This document shows, in pieces, positions 27,043-32,010 of a DNA stretch of 32,756 nt (position 1 is the stretch's first letter; every line of letters begins with the position of its first letter). This DNA comes from a virus. The position numbers and the translations under genes were made by a program. The stretch is taken from positions 1 to 32,756 of the IMG/VR virus record IMGVR_UViG_3300042691_017034; one strand, given 5' to 3'. A model generated the notes under the pieces. It had not been told where the DNA came from. It searched no databases and saw only the letters and a list, made by a program, of their open reading frames with translations.

Positions 27043-27504
27043 ATGACGCAGGATGGCTCACCAAAATACTGGCTCAGGCGGAACTTCACCGAGACGCTCA
27101 GTCTTTCGGAAGAAGCCTCTGATTGGCTGATTGCGCTTTGGGAAGTCATTCAGCTTTTTGATGATGTGGCAGACAAAGATCCAATTGACCGTGATGAATT
27201 AGATATGGTCATCTGGAATGCACTGGTCGGAATGCCTGCTAATTTATTTTACCAGCGCAACATTCATATTTTAACGCCTTTACTCAGCATTATGGTTTTG
27301 AAGTGGAAGGCATCTGACACTGTAGAGCGTAATGGAGAAGCTTGCGCCACCAGCTTTGTTTGGCGCGCTGGATATTATGATCTGGTCTTGGCTACCGTTC
27401 AGCTTGAACATGGCGCACAGGCCGCAATGGATATAGGCCATGCTGTGCTGAAGCTTTATGGCGAAAGCCTGGAGGATTACATGAAGGAAATGCAAGATGC
27501 CTGA
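27043..27504 (+). CDS. Helical protein in the gp14 position, with DDxxD-like motif
   Basis: This 153-residue protein is almost all helix: EEASDWLIALWEVIQLFDDV, ADKDPIDRDELDMVIWNAL, LTPLLSIMVLKWKASDTVE. The acidic stretch FDDVADKD sits at the end of a helix as in isoprenoid synthase-fold proteins, but no second metal motif is clear. In P22, gp14 (a head/ejection-related gene) lies here before gp7. The name is positional only. It overlaps the gp7-like gene by 8 bases. Confidence 0.6.
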   Translation: MTQDGSPKYWLRRNFTETLSLSEEASDWLIALWEVIQLFDDVADKDPIDRDELDMVIWNALVGMPANLFYQRNIHILTPLLSIMVLKWKASDTVERNGEACATSFVWRAGYYDLVLATVQLEHGAQAAMDIGHAVLKLYGESLEDYMKEMQDA

Positions 27505-28189
27505 TCCTATCAGTGCAGTCATTGGTGGTGTAGCAACGCTGGGATCATCCGTTATTGGTTCTAGTGCGGCTAAATCCGCTGGTGCGGCTCAAGAACGTGC
27601 TGCCATGCTTGGAGTTGAAGAGCAGCGCGCAGCACGCGAGGAAACTCGCCGCCTTTTGCAGCCTTATGTATCTGCTGGGGATCCAGCCCTACAGGCTCTG
27701 ATGGGTGCCTTAGGATTGCGTGGCCCAGAGGAGCAAGCTGCATTTGTTTCTCAGCAGGAACAGAGCCCAATTTTTCAGGCATTGGCTCGGCAGGGTGAAG
27801 AAGCCATGTTGCAGCAGGCATCTGCGACTGGTGGATTGCGCGGCGGAAACCTTCAAGGTGCGCTGGCCCAGTTCCGTCCTGCACTGCTCAATCAGTTCCT
27901 TGAACAGCAGTATAGCCGCCTTGGTGGATTGACTACGCTCGGTCAGCAATCTGCTGCTGGGGTTGGTTCCGCTGGTATGCAATCTGCTACCAATATCGGA
28001 AACTTGCTTGGTCAAGCTGGTCAGGCTCAGGCTGGTGCGGCTCTTGGATCTGCCCAAGCATGGGGACAGGGCCTTAGTGGATTGGCTCAGATCGGTGGCA
28101 TACTTGCGGGAAGATCAGGCGGCGGAAACCTTGGCCGATTAGTTCCTGATGTGACATCAACCATCTCTGCAAATCCGAGTATTTTCTAA
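27497..28189 (+). CDS. DNA ejection protein, P22 gp7-like
   Basis: This 230-residue protein is close in length to P22 gp7 (229). The N terminus (PISAVIGGVATLGSSVIGSS) is a hydrophobic amphipathic stretch followed by AAKSAGAAQERAAMLGVEEQ. The central glutamine-rich helices and C-terminal Gly/Ala repeat (GQAGQAQAGAALGSAQAWGQ) fit a protein ejected with the DNA to cross the periplasm. It directly abuts the next ejection gene at TAATGG. The second-to-last part has a Gly-rich loop (GRSGGGNLGRL). Confidence 0.82.
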   Translation: MPDPISAVIGGVATLGSSVIGSSAAKSAGAAQERAAMLGVEEQRAAREETRRLLQPYVSAGDPALQALMGALGLRGPEEQAAFVSQQEQSPIFQALARQGEEAMLQQASATGGLRGGNLQGALAQFRPALLNQFLEQQYSRLGGLTTLGQQSAAGVGSAGMQSATNIGNLLGQAGQAQAGAALGSAQAWGQGLSGLAQIGGILAGRSGGGNLGRLVPDVTSTISANPSIF

Positions 28190-28977
28190 TGGCTGGACCA
28201 TATGATTATTCGATAAATGTCCCAAACCCAGTTGCTGGGTTTTTGCAGGGTGTTCAGGTCGGGCAGGCGGTTCGCCAGCAAGAAGCTGAAAGGCTGCAAG
28301 CGGAGCAGAAAAAGCAGTTAGAAGCTGCATTCCTTCAGGATATTCGCGGCGCAATTCAGAACCCTACGCCAGAGCGTTGGCAGGAACTTTATGCCAAGCA
28401 TCCTATGATGTACGAGCAGATTTCAGCCATTCGCAAAGGCACCGCCCCAGCAACTGCCAATCTGTTTACCAATACCGCATTGAAGGTTCTGCAGTTTGAT
28501 GCGCTTGGCGATGTTGAAGGTGCTGCAAAGCAGGCTGAGGACGCTGCTGCTGCGGCCACTGCAAGCGGTATGACTGAGGAAGCTCAGAAGCTTACAGACA
28601 TGGCTACCACCTATCGTCGTATGCAGGCTGATCCTACGCAGCGCCGTGGTGCTGTTGCTGGCCTTTTGGCGGTTTATGCCACGCCAGAGCAGTACGACCG
28701 AATCAGTAAGGTTTACGGTTTTGATATGCCAGCGCCTCTGGCTGAATATCAGGCGCGTCTCCGCAAGGATGGTAAAGAAGCTGCTGACACATGGTGGAAG
28801 CTAGAGAGTGGCAAGTTCCTCACAACTGATGATGCGTTTATCAATGTTGAGGAATATCTTAAGCGCGGCGGCCCAATTACTGGAGCACCAGCGCCCAAAG
28901 GTGTTACCTTCACCCCTGTAAAAGCACCGGAAGGAGGTCAGACGGCAAAACCGTCTGGTAACTTTCAAGGGAAGTGA
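28189..28977 (+). CDS. DNA ejection protein, gp20-like, likely frameshifted fusion
   Basis: This 262-residue protein has the position and composition of P22 gp20. Helices include VPNPVAGFLQGVQVGQAVRQ, EAERLQAEQKKQLEAAFLQD and KQAEDAAAAATASGMTEEAQ. It is shorter than P22 gp20 (471). Right at its end the frame +1 is open for a further ~106 codons and encodes an M15-like peptidase domain (next entry), so the full-length product may be a fusion of about 365 residues made by frameshifting. The last codons are PSGNFQGK, stop TGA 28975-28977. Confidence 0.8.
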   Translation: MAGPYDYSINVPNPVAGFLQGVQVGQAVRQQEAERLQAEQKKQLEAAFLQDIRGAIQNPTPERWQELYAKHPMMYEQISAIRKGTAPATANLFTNTALKVLQFDALGDVEGAAKQAEDAAAAATASGMTEEAQKLTDMATTYRRMQADPTQRRGAVAGLLAVYATPEQYDRISKVYGFDMPAPLAEYQARLRKDGKEAADTWWKLESGKFLTTDDAFINVEEYLKRGGPITGAPAPKGVTFTPVKAPEGGQTAKPSGNFQGK

Positions 28978-29287
28978 CATTGATCCGATTGGTGATCTTG
29001 GAAAGCTTGGATTCACTCCGACCAGTGGGTTCAGGACGCAGAGACATCAAGAGGCATTGCGAGAGCAGGGATTAACGCAAACCAAGACTGGGGCACATCC
29101 TAAGGGTGATGCTTTAGATTTTATGCCTCCTAGAGGTATGAACATTAATCAAGCGATGCAGATTATACGGCAACGCTATCCTGGTGCTAGAGTTGCTCCT
29201 AGCAACAAAGGTGCAATTCATGTAACCTTGCCTGGATGGGGCAAGGCCCCTGATGTTAGCGGTTCTCGCCGCAGATATGGTGATTGA
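28922..29287 (+). CDS. M15 peptidase-like domain, +1 frame after gp20-like gene
   Basis: A frame open from 28922 to TGA 29285-29287 contains no ATG, GTG or TTG before TTG 29057, yet the coding signature begins upstream of it. DLGKLGFTPTSGFRTQRHQE is followed by the M15 motif H-P-K-G-D-A-L-D (H-x2-G-x-A-x-D) and a second histidine in GAIHVTLPG. The S-G-F-R-T motif is part of the family and lies before TTG 29057. It probably forms the C-terminal domain of the preceding ejection protein by +1 frameshift (for example on TTT-C at 28963-28966). Otherwise it is a broken gene or a one-base sequencing error. It could locally open peptidoglycan during DNA entry. Confidence 0.65.
   Translation, partial: KHRKEVRRQNRLVTFKGSDIDPIGDLGKLGFTPTSGFRTQRHQEALREQGLTQTKTGAHPKGDALDFMPPRGMNINQAMQIIRQRYPGARVAPSNKGAIHVTLPGWGKAPDVSGSRRRYGD
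28931..28957 (+). promoter_or_regulatory. Perfect Shine-Dalgarno followed by a 7-bp hairpin
   Basis: AAGGAGGT (28931-28938), a full complement to the 16S anti-Shine-Dalgarno, is followed at once by CAGACGG (28939-28945), loop CAAAA and CCGTCTG (28951-28957), a perfect 7-bp stem. It lies inside the gp20-like gene, 6-18 bases before the likely shift site, and no start codon sits at initiation distance. It may slow ribosomes to promote frameshifting. Confidence 0.55.
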
Positions 29288-29289
29288 AT

Positions 29290-32010
29290 ATGGCTGAACA
29301 GTATCAGGAAGGCGAAGTTCTCAAGGGCAGCGATGGCAAGACGTACATCGTTGTCGGCGGCGTTCCTCGTGAGCAGGTGTCTGCTCCAGCCATAGAAGGC
29401 GGTGTTTATCGTTTGCCAACTTCTCCGCAGAAGGCTGCTAAAGAAGAGCGTGAAGCGGCTGGAGAAGAACGCGCACAGCGCGGTGAACAGCGTGCCATTG
29501 AAAGCACCGCGTTTGACCAGATTGGAAAGATCCGCACTGAATTTCTTGGTATCCCAGAGGTTAAAGAATTTCGCGGCGTTCTGAACTCAACGCGCCAGAT
29601 CATTGGTCTTGCTCAACGTGAAGGTTCTCCTATGGGGGATCTTGGCTTGATCTTTTCCTATATGAAAACGCTTGATCCTGGCTCTGTGGTTAGGGAAGGT
29701 GAACAGGCAAATGCGCAGAATGCCGCTGGCGTTCCAGAGCGTATCCGCAACTATTATAACCAACTTATTGCTGGTGAGCGTCTATCGCCTGAGCAGCGCG
29801 CTGACATGGCTAATACTGCCATCAACATCTACAACACGCGCAAAGTAGGTTATGAAGATCTTGCCAATACCTATCGTGGATTGATGGGCAATCTTGGCGC
29901 TAACCCTGATGAGCAGGGTATCACGCTTGCTCCTGCTCTTGAGTTTGGCGCAAAGCCAGGTGAGCAACCTCCTGCTCCCGGCGCTCCATCCCAGTTTGGT
30001 GCGCCGCGCATTGAAGTGGCAAAGGGTGAGGCGTTCTCAACTGAGCAAGACTTCAAGCGCCGCCAAGATAGCGCAGAAGCGTGGGCTGCAACGCAGGGTC
30101 TGCCGTTTGATCAGGCACTGGCTCAGTTCAATGCTACCATGCAGGCTAAGGGATATGGACCTGCTGGCAAAGAGACGATTGACGTTCTCCAGTGGTGGGA
30201 ACAGAACAAGCCTGGAGATCGTGGCGCTGTTGTTTGGGAACTTCCGGCCACTGGTAAGCGTGAAGGCGGTGCGCCTGGTCAGGTGGCGGCTGCTGGATCT
30301 GCTCTTCTCACTGGATACACTGGCGGTCTTGCAGAAGAGGTTGTTCAGCAGTTTAGCCCTGAGGCGGCTGCGAAGCTTGAAGCTGCCAAGCAGTATGGCC
30401 GCGAGGAATATCCTGGGACCACGTTAACTGGCGAAGTTATTGGCGGTCTACTTTCACCATTGACTAGGATTGGCCCAAGCGGAACTGTTGCTGGTGAGGC
30501 AGTACGCGCCGGAACCTATGGCGGTATCTCTGGTTTTGGTGAGGCCGCGCCTGATGCTGGTATTTCTGAACGTATTCTTCCTGCAATTGCCGGTGCAACA
30601 ATCGGGGGAACAACTGGTGCTGCAGCGCAGCGTTATGTCACTCCTGCTGTCACTGAATTTACAGAACGCTTTGTCGCACCAGTAGTTCAGCGCGGTATGA
30701 CTCCAGCTACGCAGCAGGCTATTCCAGCCGCTGAACAGGCTGGCATTCCGCTGCTCACCTCTGACATCATGAAGCCTCGCACATGGTTTGGGCGGTGGAC
30801 GCAGGAAACGCTTGAGAAGGTTCCAGTGCTTGGGACTGGTGGCGCTCGTTCTACCCAGCGTGAAGCGCGTGAAGCTGCTATCACCAAGCTATATGATGAT
30901 TTCCAAGCTGGCGCTCCTGAGATTGATGACATCACCAAGGACTTCCTAAAGGTGCGTGGCGAGCAGATTGGTAATCTAACGCGCCAAAAGACTGAGGTTC
31001 TGAATAAGGTCTCTGGTACACCTGTCGATGTTACCGATACGCTTGCTGTAATTGACTCTGGTATTGCTAAGTATGGCAGTCTTGAAAGCTATCAGCCATT
31101 GATCGCCAAGTTGCAGTCGTTCCGTAACGACCTGCTATCTGGTGACATGACCAAGATCGAACTGACGCGCAAAGCTATTGGCGATGCGCTCGGTGATGAT
31201 ACGCTTAAGCCGGTTTCAACTGAACTGAAAAAGATCGTTGGCGACATCTATCCTGCTCTGCGTCAGGATATGGGCCGTCACATCCAGAAGTTTGGTGAGG
31301 CTGGTGACTTTGCAAAGTGGCGCTCTGCCAATGAGCAGTTGTCAGACTTCGCAACGGATCTTGAAACTTCGACCATTCGCCGCGTTCTCACTAAGGGTGA
31401 GGCAACGCCAGAAGAGGCTCGTGCGCTTCTGTTCAGCCGTAATCGCAGCGATGTGCAGAAGCTGTTCAACAGCCTTAGTGAAGATGGAAAGCGCAATGCT
31501 CGTGGCCTGATCATTCAGGATATGGTTGAGAAAGCTGGCGGTATTGAAAACCTCAGCCCAGCACGATTTACCCGCGAATTGAAGAATGCTGGAAAGAAGA
31601 TTGGTGTTGCCTTTGATGCTGCAGATGCTGATCGCTTGACTGGTCTGCTTCGCGCCCTCCAATTCACGCGCCGTGCAGATCAGGCTGGTGTCACTACTCC
31701 TACTGGTCAGGCATTGATTCCGCTTCTTGCTGGTGGCCTTGGTGGTGCCAGCGCATATTTTGTACCTGGGGCAACTGGTGCTGCTGGCGCTCTTCTTACG
31801 ACTGCCATCGCTGGCGCTCGTATGTATGAGAGCAAGGCAGTAAAGAACATCTTGGTTGCATTGTCTCGCACCGCTCCGGGCAGCAAGGCAGAACAGAACG
31901 TCCTTTCCAGCCTTGCGCGAGTCCTATCTCAGCAGGCAGGTCAGGAAGGTGGTGAGGCTGGTCGCGCTGTTAGTGAGGAGATGGCTCCTCCCAAGGTTCC
32001 AACGCAATGA
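29290..32010 (+). CDS. Large DNA ejection protein, P22 gp16-position
   Basis: The ATG at 29290 gives 906 residues (a TTG at 29284 is in frame); the ribosome site is weak, so coupling to the preceding frame is likely. The N-terminal ~330 residues are soluble and helical. The middle has Gly/Ala-rich hydrophobic stretches (AAAGSALLTGYTGGLAEEVV; AGATIGGTTGAAAQRYVTPA). A last membrane-like segment is at about 805-840 (LIPLLAGGLGGASAYFVPGA). Such amphipathic and hydrophobic segments suit a protein ejected to form the trans-envelope channel. It is longer than P22 gp16 (609) and I saw no clear transglycosylase motif, which may instead be supplied by the M15 domain upstream. Confidence 0.82.
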   Translation: MAEQYQEGEVLKGSDGKTYIVVGGVPREQVSAPAIEGGVYRLPTSPQKAAKEEREAAGEERAQRGEQRAIESTAFDQIGKIRTEFLGIPEVKEFRGVLNSTRQIIGLAQREGSPMGDLGLIFSYMKTLDPGSVVREGEQANAQNAAGVPERIRNYYNQLIAGERLSPEQRADMANTAINIYNTRKVGYEDLANTYRGLMGNLGANPDEQGITLAPALEFGAKPGEQPPAPGAPSQFGAPRIEVAKGEAFSTEQDFKRRQDSAEAWAATQGLPFDQALAQFNATMQAKGYGPAGKETIDVLQWWEQNKPGDRGAVVWELPATGKREGGAPGQVAAAGSALLTGYTGGLAEEVVQQFSPEAAAKLEAAKQYGREEYPGTTLTGEVIGGLLSPLTRIGPSGTVAGEAVRAGTYGGISGFGEAAPDAGISERILPAIAGATIGGTTGAAAQRYVTPAVTEFTERFVAPVVQRGMTPATQQAIPAAEQAGIPLLTSDIMKPRTWFGRWTQETLEKVPVLGTGGARSTQREAREAAITKLYDDFQAGAPEIDDITKDFLKVRGEQIGNLTRQKTEVLNKVSGTPVDVTDTLAVIDSGIAKYGSLESYQPLIAKLQSFRNDLLSGDMTKIELTRKAIGDALGDDTLKPVSTELKKIVGDIYPALRQDMGRHIQKFGEAGDFAKWRSANEQLSDFATDLETSTIRRVLTKGEATPEEARALLFSRNRSDVQKLFNSLSEDGKRNARGLIIQDMVEKAGGIENLSPARFTRELKNAGKKIGVAFDAADADRLTGLLRALQFTRRADQAGVTTPTGQALIPLLAGGLGGASAYFVPGATGAAGALLTTAIAGARMYESKAVKNILVALSRTAPGSKAEQNVLSSLARVLSQQAGQEGGEAGRAVSEEMAPPKVPTQ

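Follow-up and report, generated by a model that had tools for sequence, protein, structure and literature searches.

The locus studied here raises the question of how a domain that lies beyond the stop codon of a phage DNA ejection gene, in the +1 frame and with no usual start codon ahead of it, might come to be translated. The DNA analyzed (the window, i.e., the whole stretch of 32,756 bases) is an IMG/VR virus record with a P22-like structural module, and its relevant features are collected in Table 1. An ORF located between a gp7-like gene and a DNA transfer protein gene, and thus at the gp20 position, encodes a 262-aa protein that had no significant Pfam or PHROG match of its own; its role as a P22-like injectosome or ejection protein is suggested by synteny between the gp7-like and gp16-like genes and by the annotations of phages Pam1 and VSN-002 given below. 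An earlier sequence-only reading had claimed that the +1 frame following the gp20-like stop encodes an M15-like domain and that this frame contains no ATG, GTG or TTG from 28922 until inside the domain. Both claims were confirmed, since from 28922 the +1 frame meets no stop until the TGA at 29285-29287, its first ATG, GTG or TTG comes not before 29057, and the stretch 28964-29284 yielded a model with an M15 fold. The explanation that we favor, with a probability of roughly 0.88, is a programmed +1 frameshift in which a slip of tRNA-Phe, stimulated by a Shine-Dalgarno (SD)-like motif and a hairpin, would provide some of the ejection protein with a C-terminal peptidoglycan-cutting domain.

Table 1. 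Features of the window that bear on the proposed frameshift.
Feature	Position	Strand	Details
Virus record (IMG/VR)			32,756 bases
Portal, coat and stabilisation proteins			P22-like structural module of the window; Pfam
P22 gp7-like DNA ejection protein gene	27497-28189	+	Pfam P22_gp7 E 9e-10; phrog_598 E 4.5e-36
0-frame ORF, ejection protein at gp20 position	28189-28977	+	262 aa; C-terminal end ...GGQTAKPSGNFQGK*
0-frame stop	28975-28977	+	TGA
Internal SD-like motif	28931-28938	+	AAGGAGGT; GGAGG core 28933-28937
Upstream hairpin	28939-28957	+	arms 28939-28945 (CAGACGG) and 28951-28957 (CCGTCTG); loop of 5 (CAAAA)
Putative +1 slip site	28963-28966	+	TTTC; P-site UUU to UUC
+1-frame extension	28964-29287	+	107-aa domain of predicted M15 fold, then stop 29285-29287 (TGA)
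Predicted frameshift product P0003	28189-29287	+	365 aa; translated with TTTC as one Phe
DNA transfer protein gene at gp16 position	29290-32010	+	phrog_770 E 6e-68; likely ATG 29290

Modeling of the 107-aa domain with AlphaFold2 on 33 sequences gave a pLDDT of 94.9. When the model was compared with known structures using VIA-align, the first 38 rows were all M15 peptidases or Hedgehog domains, the best being LysECD7 with a Z of 7.1 (3.2 Å over 91 residues), a value which is below 8 but comes with uniform rows that agree with the sequence motif. Foldseek found no match below 1e-3 for this model and, by itself, returned noise for an earlier model from a shallow alignment. On the basis of the model, the window domain is predicted to have the M15/Hedgehog fold. 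Its score against Pfam M15_3 (PF08291) was sub-threshold (14.8 bits vs. a gathering score of 23.2; E 0.03), while five other extensions carried by the cassette described below pass the gathering score. H45, D52, and H86 are invariant in the 33 sequences and, by motif, are the likely zinc ligands. M15 enzymes usually carry an acid three residues before the last His; several of the cassette-borne M15_3 extensions have Asp at this H-3 position (GDHIH), and the window type has G or N. Because this acid is lacking, a wall-cutting activity is, for the window's own domain, something that we infer.

Given that the window is a metagenomic virus record and that the domain forms an in-frame fusion in phage VSN-002, the offset could in principle stem from a mistake in sequencing or assembly, or from a fused gene that broke recently. 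Using the window domain as query, 75 homologous IMG/VR loci were obtained, with 60-82% identity for nearly all of them. The results showed that at 74 of the 75 loci the domain is offset by +1 relative to the upstream ORF, the upstream stop falling within a few codons of the site, although the loci share kinship and therefore these and the other locus counts given here are not independent. At the one remaining locus (L076, contig IMGVR_UViG_3300021430_000027), the match covers just the C-terminal 67 residues. Since the +1 relation is kept in 74 of 75 loci, a one-base sequencing error is excluded. In addition, more than 100 cassette-bearing contigs show this offset, as do one cultured phage and one bacterial genome, the protein sequence of the +1 domain is conserved, and the arms of the hairpin covary; an error or a broken gene is thereby refuted for the family, and we regard it as an exceedingly improbable account of the locus. 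When more divergent loci were added, the same +1 picture was obtained with one exception, the single contig IMGVR_UViG_3300031951_002967 (L122/L140), which is the only relative with a -1 offset and has no hairpin cassette. There the domain lies in the -1 frame at CCC CCT TTC GGG GGG TAA, where C_CCT_TTC fits the pattern of a -1 slippery heptamer and a change of one base in the C run gives an in-frame fusion. This contig represents either a one-base error in the C run that hides such a fusion or a switch to -1 frameshifting.

That a full SD-like sequence and a 7-bp hairpin sit just upstream of the 0-frame stop had also been noticed in the sequence-only reading, and both were recovered at the positions given in Table 1. 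The two arms form an exact inverted repeat of 7 bp (fold z = -2.9), which may be prolonged by a U-G pair between U28938 and G28958. The order in the window is AAGGAGGT, CAGACGG-CAAAA-CCGTCTG, GTAAC, TTTC, and then the TGA. A loose pattern of this cassette occurred once in the window vs. 0.6 occurrences expected and, therefore, the window by itself proves little. The comparison of relatives defined the general form GGAGG - stem - loop - stem - 5 nt - TTTY, shared by all members except L122/L140, with TTTY always placed 5 nt after the stem. GGAGG is invariant in the alignments of two classes, A and B, and one relative has GGGGG instead. Class A has one base, then a 7-bp stem with either a loop of 5 (25 nt from GGAGG to TTT) or a loop of 8 (28 nt), and class B has an 8-bp stem with a GNAA tetraloop (25 nt from GGAGG to TTT).

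The sequences of the stems vary widely yet remain paired (CAGACGG, CCGGCTG, CCGACGC, CAGGCGG, GTGGCA, CACCAGCG, CGCTAGCA, and others). Paired cells made up 98.4% of the class-A alignment, with two-sided changes at 4 of the 7 pairs, and 100% of the class-B alignment, with such changes at 7 of the 8 pairs. None of 500 class-A shuffles was as high in either cells paired or covariation score, and sliding of the partner arm abolished the pairing, except that some of it was left at -3 and +3 for class B, it being understood that shuffling and sliding both leave shared ancestry in place. A wide-spacer control gave 90 matches at spacer 4, which are probably class-A hairpins picked up in the register of class B. 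Stem changes this extensive in both registers are difficult to account for unless pairing is under selection. Together, its conservation, its constant spacing, and the covariation mark the cassette as a conserved cis-acting element, with a stimulatory role that is predicted from its sequence. A nascent-peptide signal is unlikely as a general cause, because the 0-frame peptide before the site changes along with the hairpin (GGQTATPSGN, GGGGSNATSN, and GGSGGNVTGG).

To find the cassette irrespective of what it is attached to, IMG/VR was scanned with the class-A DNA cassette only, using no protein information, and 111 stretches were obtained. Of these, 110 were read, and in every one an ORF ends at the cassette while a wall-hydrolase-like domain follows in the +1 frame, with the proviso that the pattern fixes part of the stem sequence and its matches are not independent lineages. 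Two further patterns, for another class-A stem and for a class-B stem, added 2 and 9 contigs, and all 11 have M15 or SLT domains in the +1 frame. Thus, throughout these collection-wide scans, the element was found only where a wall-hydrolase-like domain follows in the +1 frame. The cassette geometry was also sought in sets of 385 and 398 alphaproteobacterial genomes; each set gave a single match without an obvious perfect stem, and these were taken as chance. A phage collection searched at the DNA and protein levels with the window's own sequences gave no match, because the M15 domain of the known isolates is of another type. One 50.8-kb contig (IMGVR_UViG_3300035670_000305) holds two differing copies of cassette and M15 domain about 37 kb apart (L072 and L073), as though the contig combined two related phage genomes, fused or side by side.

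Among named phages, the cassette is present in cyanophage Pam1 (ON014753) at the end of Pam1_14, which is annotated as 'DNA/protein translocase of injectosome'; the cassette there reads GGAGG-T-CAGGCGG-CTCCC-CCGCCTG-CTGGC-TTTT. The next annotated gene there, Pam1_15 (L370, ON014753.1, 5130-5279), is a hypothetical protein drawn from an internal ATG and corresponds to a truncated +1-frame M15-like tail. The cassette was likewise found in the genome of Pelagerythrobacter marinus and, with a further stem, in another Sphingomonadales genome (L195). Comparison with homologues in which the domain is fused in frame had been proposed as a check, and such homologues exist. In Sphingopyxis phage VSN-002 (MZ127829) the same domain type is fused in frame and without a cassette to gp41, annotated as 'DNA/protein translocase of phage P22 injectosome'; by its sequence, this fusion is a natural control that ties the domain to the ejection protein. 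More distant relatives of the domain lie within open frames of 1500-1650 aa in Sphingomonadales genomes, and the three of these frames that were scanned match the internal virion protein family phrog_6651. One such internal virion protein of 1610 aa (L209:1439-6271) carries a staphylococcal nuclease domain (PF00565) at its N terminus and an M15-like domain at its C terminus. Because the +1 relation is kept in 74 of 75 loci and in-frame fusions occur both in VSN-002 and in these 1500-1650-aa virion proteins, a virion ejection protein that would carry a wall-cutting tip is the best reading of the locus.

These data also bear on internal initiation, by which the GGAGG would recruit ribosomes to a non-canonical +1-frame codon and the domain would be made as a separate small protein. 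A strong SD-like motif does stand ahead of the domain, most class-A members have a CTG at -8 in the +1 frame, and Pam1_15 has been annotated as an ORF starting at an internal ATG. However, the CTG lies base-paired inside the 3' stem arm and is absent from most class-B members, which have other codons at other positions; no start is conserved across clades, and one member has no ATG, GTG, TTG, or CTG at all. What is conserved among the homologues is a pair of ORFs in +1 overlap whose downstream frame has no conserved start of its own. Internal initiation would moreover leave unexplained the invariant TTTY, the 0-frame stop that is always near, the fixed distance from hairpin to TTT, and the fusion in VSN-002, and we consider it quite unlikely.

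With regard to where the frame changes, two shift-prone sites had been proposed for the window, TTT-C at 28963 and GGG-A at 28969. The former stood, since TTTY is present in all 109 distinct relatives (fourth base C in 101 and T in 8), and the latter was rejected as a shift site, as it is not conserved across the relatives. Elsewhere in these 0-frame genes, Phe is encoded by TTT at 552 of 910 codons (61%). Re-pairing of the P-site tRNA by +1, from UUU to UUC or UUU, is possible at all 109 sites, and by wobble rules the GAA anticodon of tRNA-Phe pairs better with UUC than with UUU. In 109 of 109 relatives a 0-frame stop is reached 3-33 nt past the first T of the site, i.e., 0-10 sense codons later. 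Within one genome the frames overlap by tens of nucleotides, and other places such as GGG-A could then be considered for ribosomal slippage, as could slippage during transcription. Across the members, though, the latest opening of the +1 frame is at -29 and the earliest 0-frame stop at +3 relative to the site; the frame change is therefore confined to approximately the stretch from GGAGG to TTTY, where only TTTY is invariant. The site also has just three or four T and contains no long homopolymer. Taken together, a frame change made during transcription, or by ribosomes at another place than TTTY, is very unlikely.

Under the favored programmed frameshift at TTTY, the following sequence of events is proposed. 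On entry of UUU into the P site, the SD-like motif would pair with the anti-SD and the hairpin would refold just behind the E site; tRNA-Phe would then slip from UUU to UUY and the ribosome would continue in the +1 frame, while ribosomes that do not shift would stop at once and yield the short form. The base of the stem would lie 5 nt before UUU (4 with the U-G pair), near the E site, and GGAGG would lie flush on the other side of the stem, so that the hairpin, once refolded and perhaps in a stack with the SD-anti-SD helix, could take the role that the SD plays in prfB. A sub-population of the ejection protein would thus bear a C-terminal tip, namely a peptidoglycan hydrolase joined through a linker rich in Gly, Ser, and Thr, and this tip may open the wall during DNA injection. 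An internal SD acts in +1 shifting at 3 nt from the site (PMC5009743), and an engineered hairpin placed upstream beside the site is reported to stimulate +1 shifting in a 70S system and to mimic an internal SD (PMC6321510, PMC3639245). Against the proposed mechanism stands the linear distance from SD to site, which at 25 or 28 nt differs from the 3 nt reported for +1 stimulation (PMC5009743); with the hairpin left out, the distance from GGAGG to UUU is 5-6 nt, near but not equal to the prfB spacing. A second point against it is the codon after TTT, which is TGA or TAA in only 7 of 109 relatives and mostly CAA or CGC, that is, neither a stop nor obviously slow. Sites with TTT-T mostly have the 0-frame stop directly after UUU, as in prfB; a stricter rule, that a stop always follows TTT-T, is broken by Pam1 (TTT TCG) and was weakened to 'mostly'.

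Several known systems resemble the cassette in part. With RF2 (prfB) it shares the upstream internal SD-like motif, the +1 slip of a single P-site tRNA on a U-rich codon and the nearby 0-frame stop and, in a few members, a stop directly in the A site (TTT TGA, TTT TAA). In contrast to the cassette, prfB has no hairpin, has its SD 3 nt from CUUU and serves autoregulation of RF2 (PMC12421855, PMC5009743), whereas the cassette has a hairpin between SD and site, UUU-Y, mostly a sense codon in the A site, and an ejection protein plus domain as its product; the two prfB-type features, an SD at 3 nt and a stop directly after the shift codon, are lacking in the window. Engineered upstream hairpins, studied in yeast and in 70S extracts, similarly refold beside the site, act like an SD-anti-SD duplex, and favor +1 slippage (PMC3639245, PMC6321510), but those are designed reporters while the cassette hairpin is natural, covarying, and joined with a flush GGAGG. 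The 5' stem loop of T4 gene 60 has likewise been proposed to pull the mRNA forward from behind the ribosome (PMC5009743), although gene 60 involves a 50-nt bypass and a nascent-peptide signal and the cassette a 1-nt shift with a 0-frame peptide that varies. The +1 frameshifts of Listeria phage PSA and the Ig-like extensions of phages also give two products from a structural gene through recoding at its 3' end (PMC5009743), with PSA using proline CCC sites in capsid and tail genes and the cassette using UUU-Y in an ejection gene to which wall hydrolases are added. A UUU-C slip site read +1 is also known from influenza A PA-X (UCC_UUU_CGU), where the ribosomes are eukaryotic and no stimulators are evident (PMC5009743), unlike the strong conserved 5' element on a bacterial mRNA seen here. 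Finally, the internal virion protein of phrog_342 with its endolysin domain also places a wall-cutting domain on a protein ejected before the DNA, but hydrolases of this type sit in frame on every copy, whereas at the cassette loci the domain would be optional through recoding.

By BLAST, the extensions of the 109 distinct relatives fall into five clusters, namely M15-like types that include the window's and the Pfam M15_3 members, a second M15-like type of 92-93 aa, two clusters of SLT transglycosylases (Pfam SLT up to E 7e-10) that match phrog_342, and one with similarity to the phrog_873 'endolysin'. Of the upstream proteins, 104 of 109 belong to one family by single linkage, some pairs being very different. 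Therefore, the wall hydrolases that follow this one signal are unrelated, while the ejection proteins ahead of it resemble each other. Internal SDs, hydrolases in virions, and +1 frameshifting by phages have each been described before, and a search of an open-access subset of the literature found no earlier report of this frameshift or element, or of interchangeable hydrolases on ejection proteins. We lean toward the view that the cassette is an undescribed class of natural +1 element, an SD-anti-SD duplex flush with a refolding hairpin that drives UUU-Y slippage, and that it serves as a joint for swappable hydrolases with a fixed ratio of armed to unarmed protein in the virion. Many short-tailed phages, Pam1 included, appear to use one conserved +1 signal near the end of a DNA-injection gene. 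If this is correct, short-tailed phages would tune the share of ejection proteins with a wall-cutting tip by ribosome slippage, and the cassette would offer a natural, covarying, and dissectible upstream hairpin that promotes +1 frameshifting, a type so far studied in engineered reporters. It is recognizable enough to reveal hidden virion hydrolases missed by gene callers, here in more than 100 phage contigs, and as a cultured phage carrying it Pam1 makes it directly testable.

The position of the extension stop suggests one further role for the shift. In the window 2 nt separate this stop from the likely ATG that follows it, that of the gp16-position gene (29285-29292), and in several relatives it overlaps the ATG of the next gene (TAATG, TGATG); the 0-frame stop of the window lies more than 300 nt from that ATG. 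Ribosomes that have shifted and reached the extension stop may accordingly also feed translation of the gp16-position gene. That the shift is real but mainly regulatory, with termination beside the next start coupling translation of that gene and the extension being secondary, is improbable, since coupling alone is insufficient to account for an extension that is a conserved folded domain and, in all of its alternative forms, wall-hydrolase-like. The two roles, coupling and the addition of a hydrolase by the programmed frameshift, may coexist. With respect to the genes preceding the extension, two loci have a phrog_6121 virion structural protein gene two before the +1 domain (L128:2438-3313 and L131:2594-3439) that ends in a Pfam Peptidase_S74 intramolecular chaperone-like domain, which is unexpected at the gp7 position.
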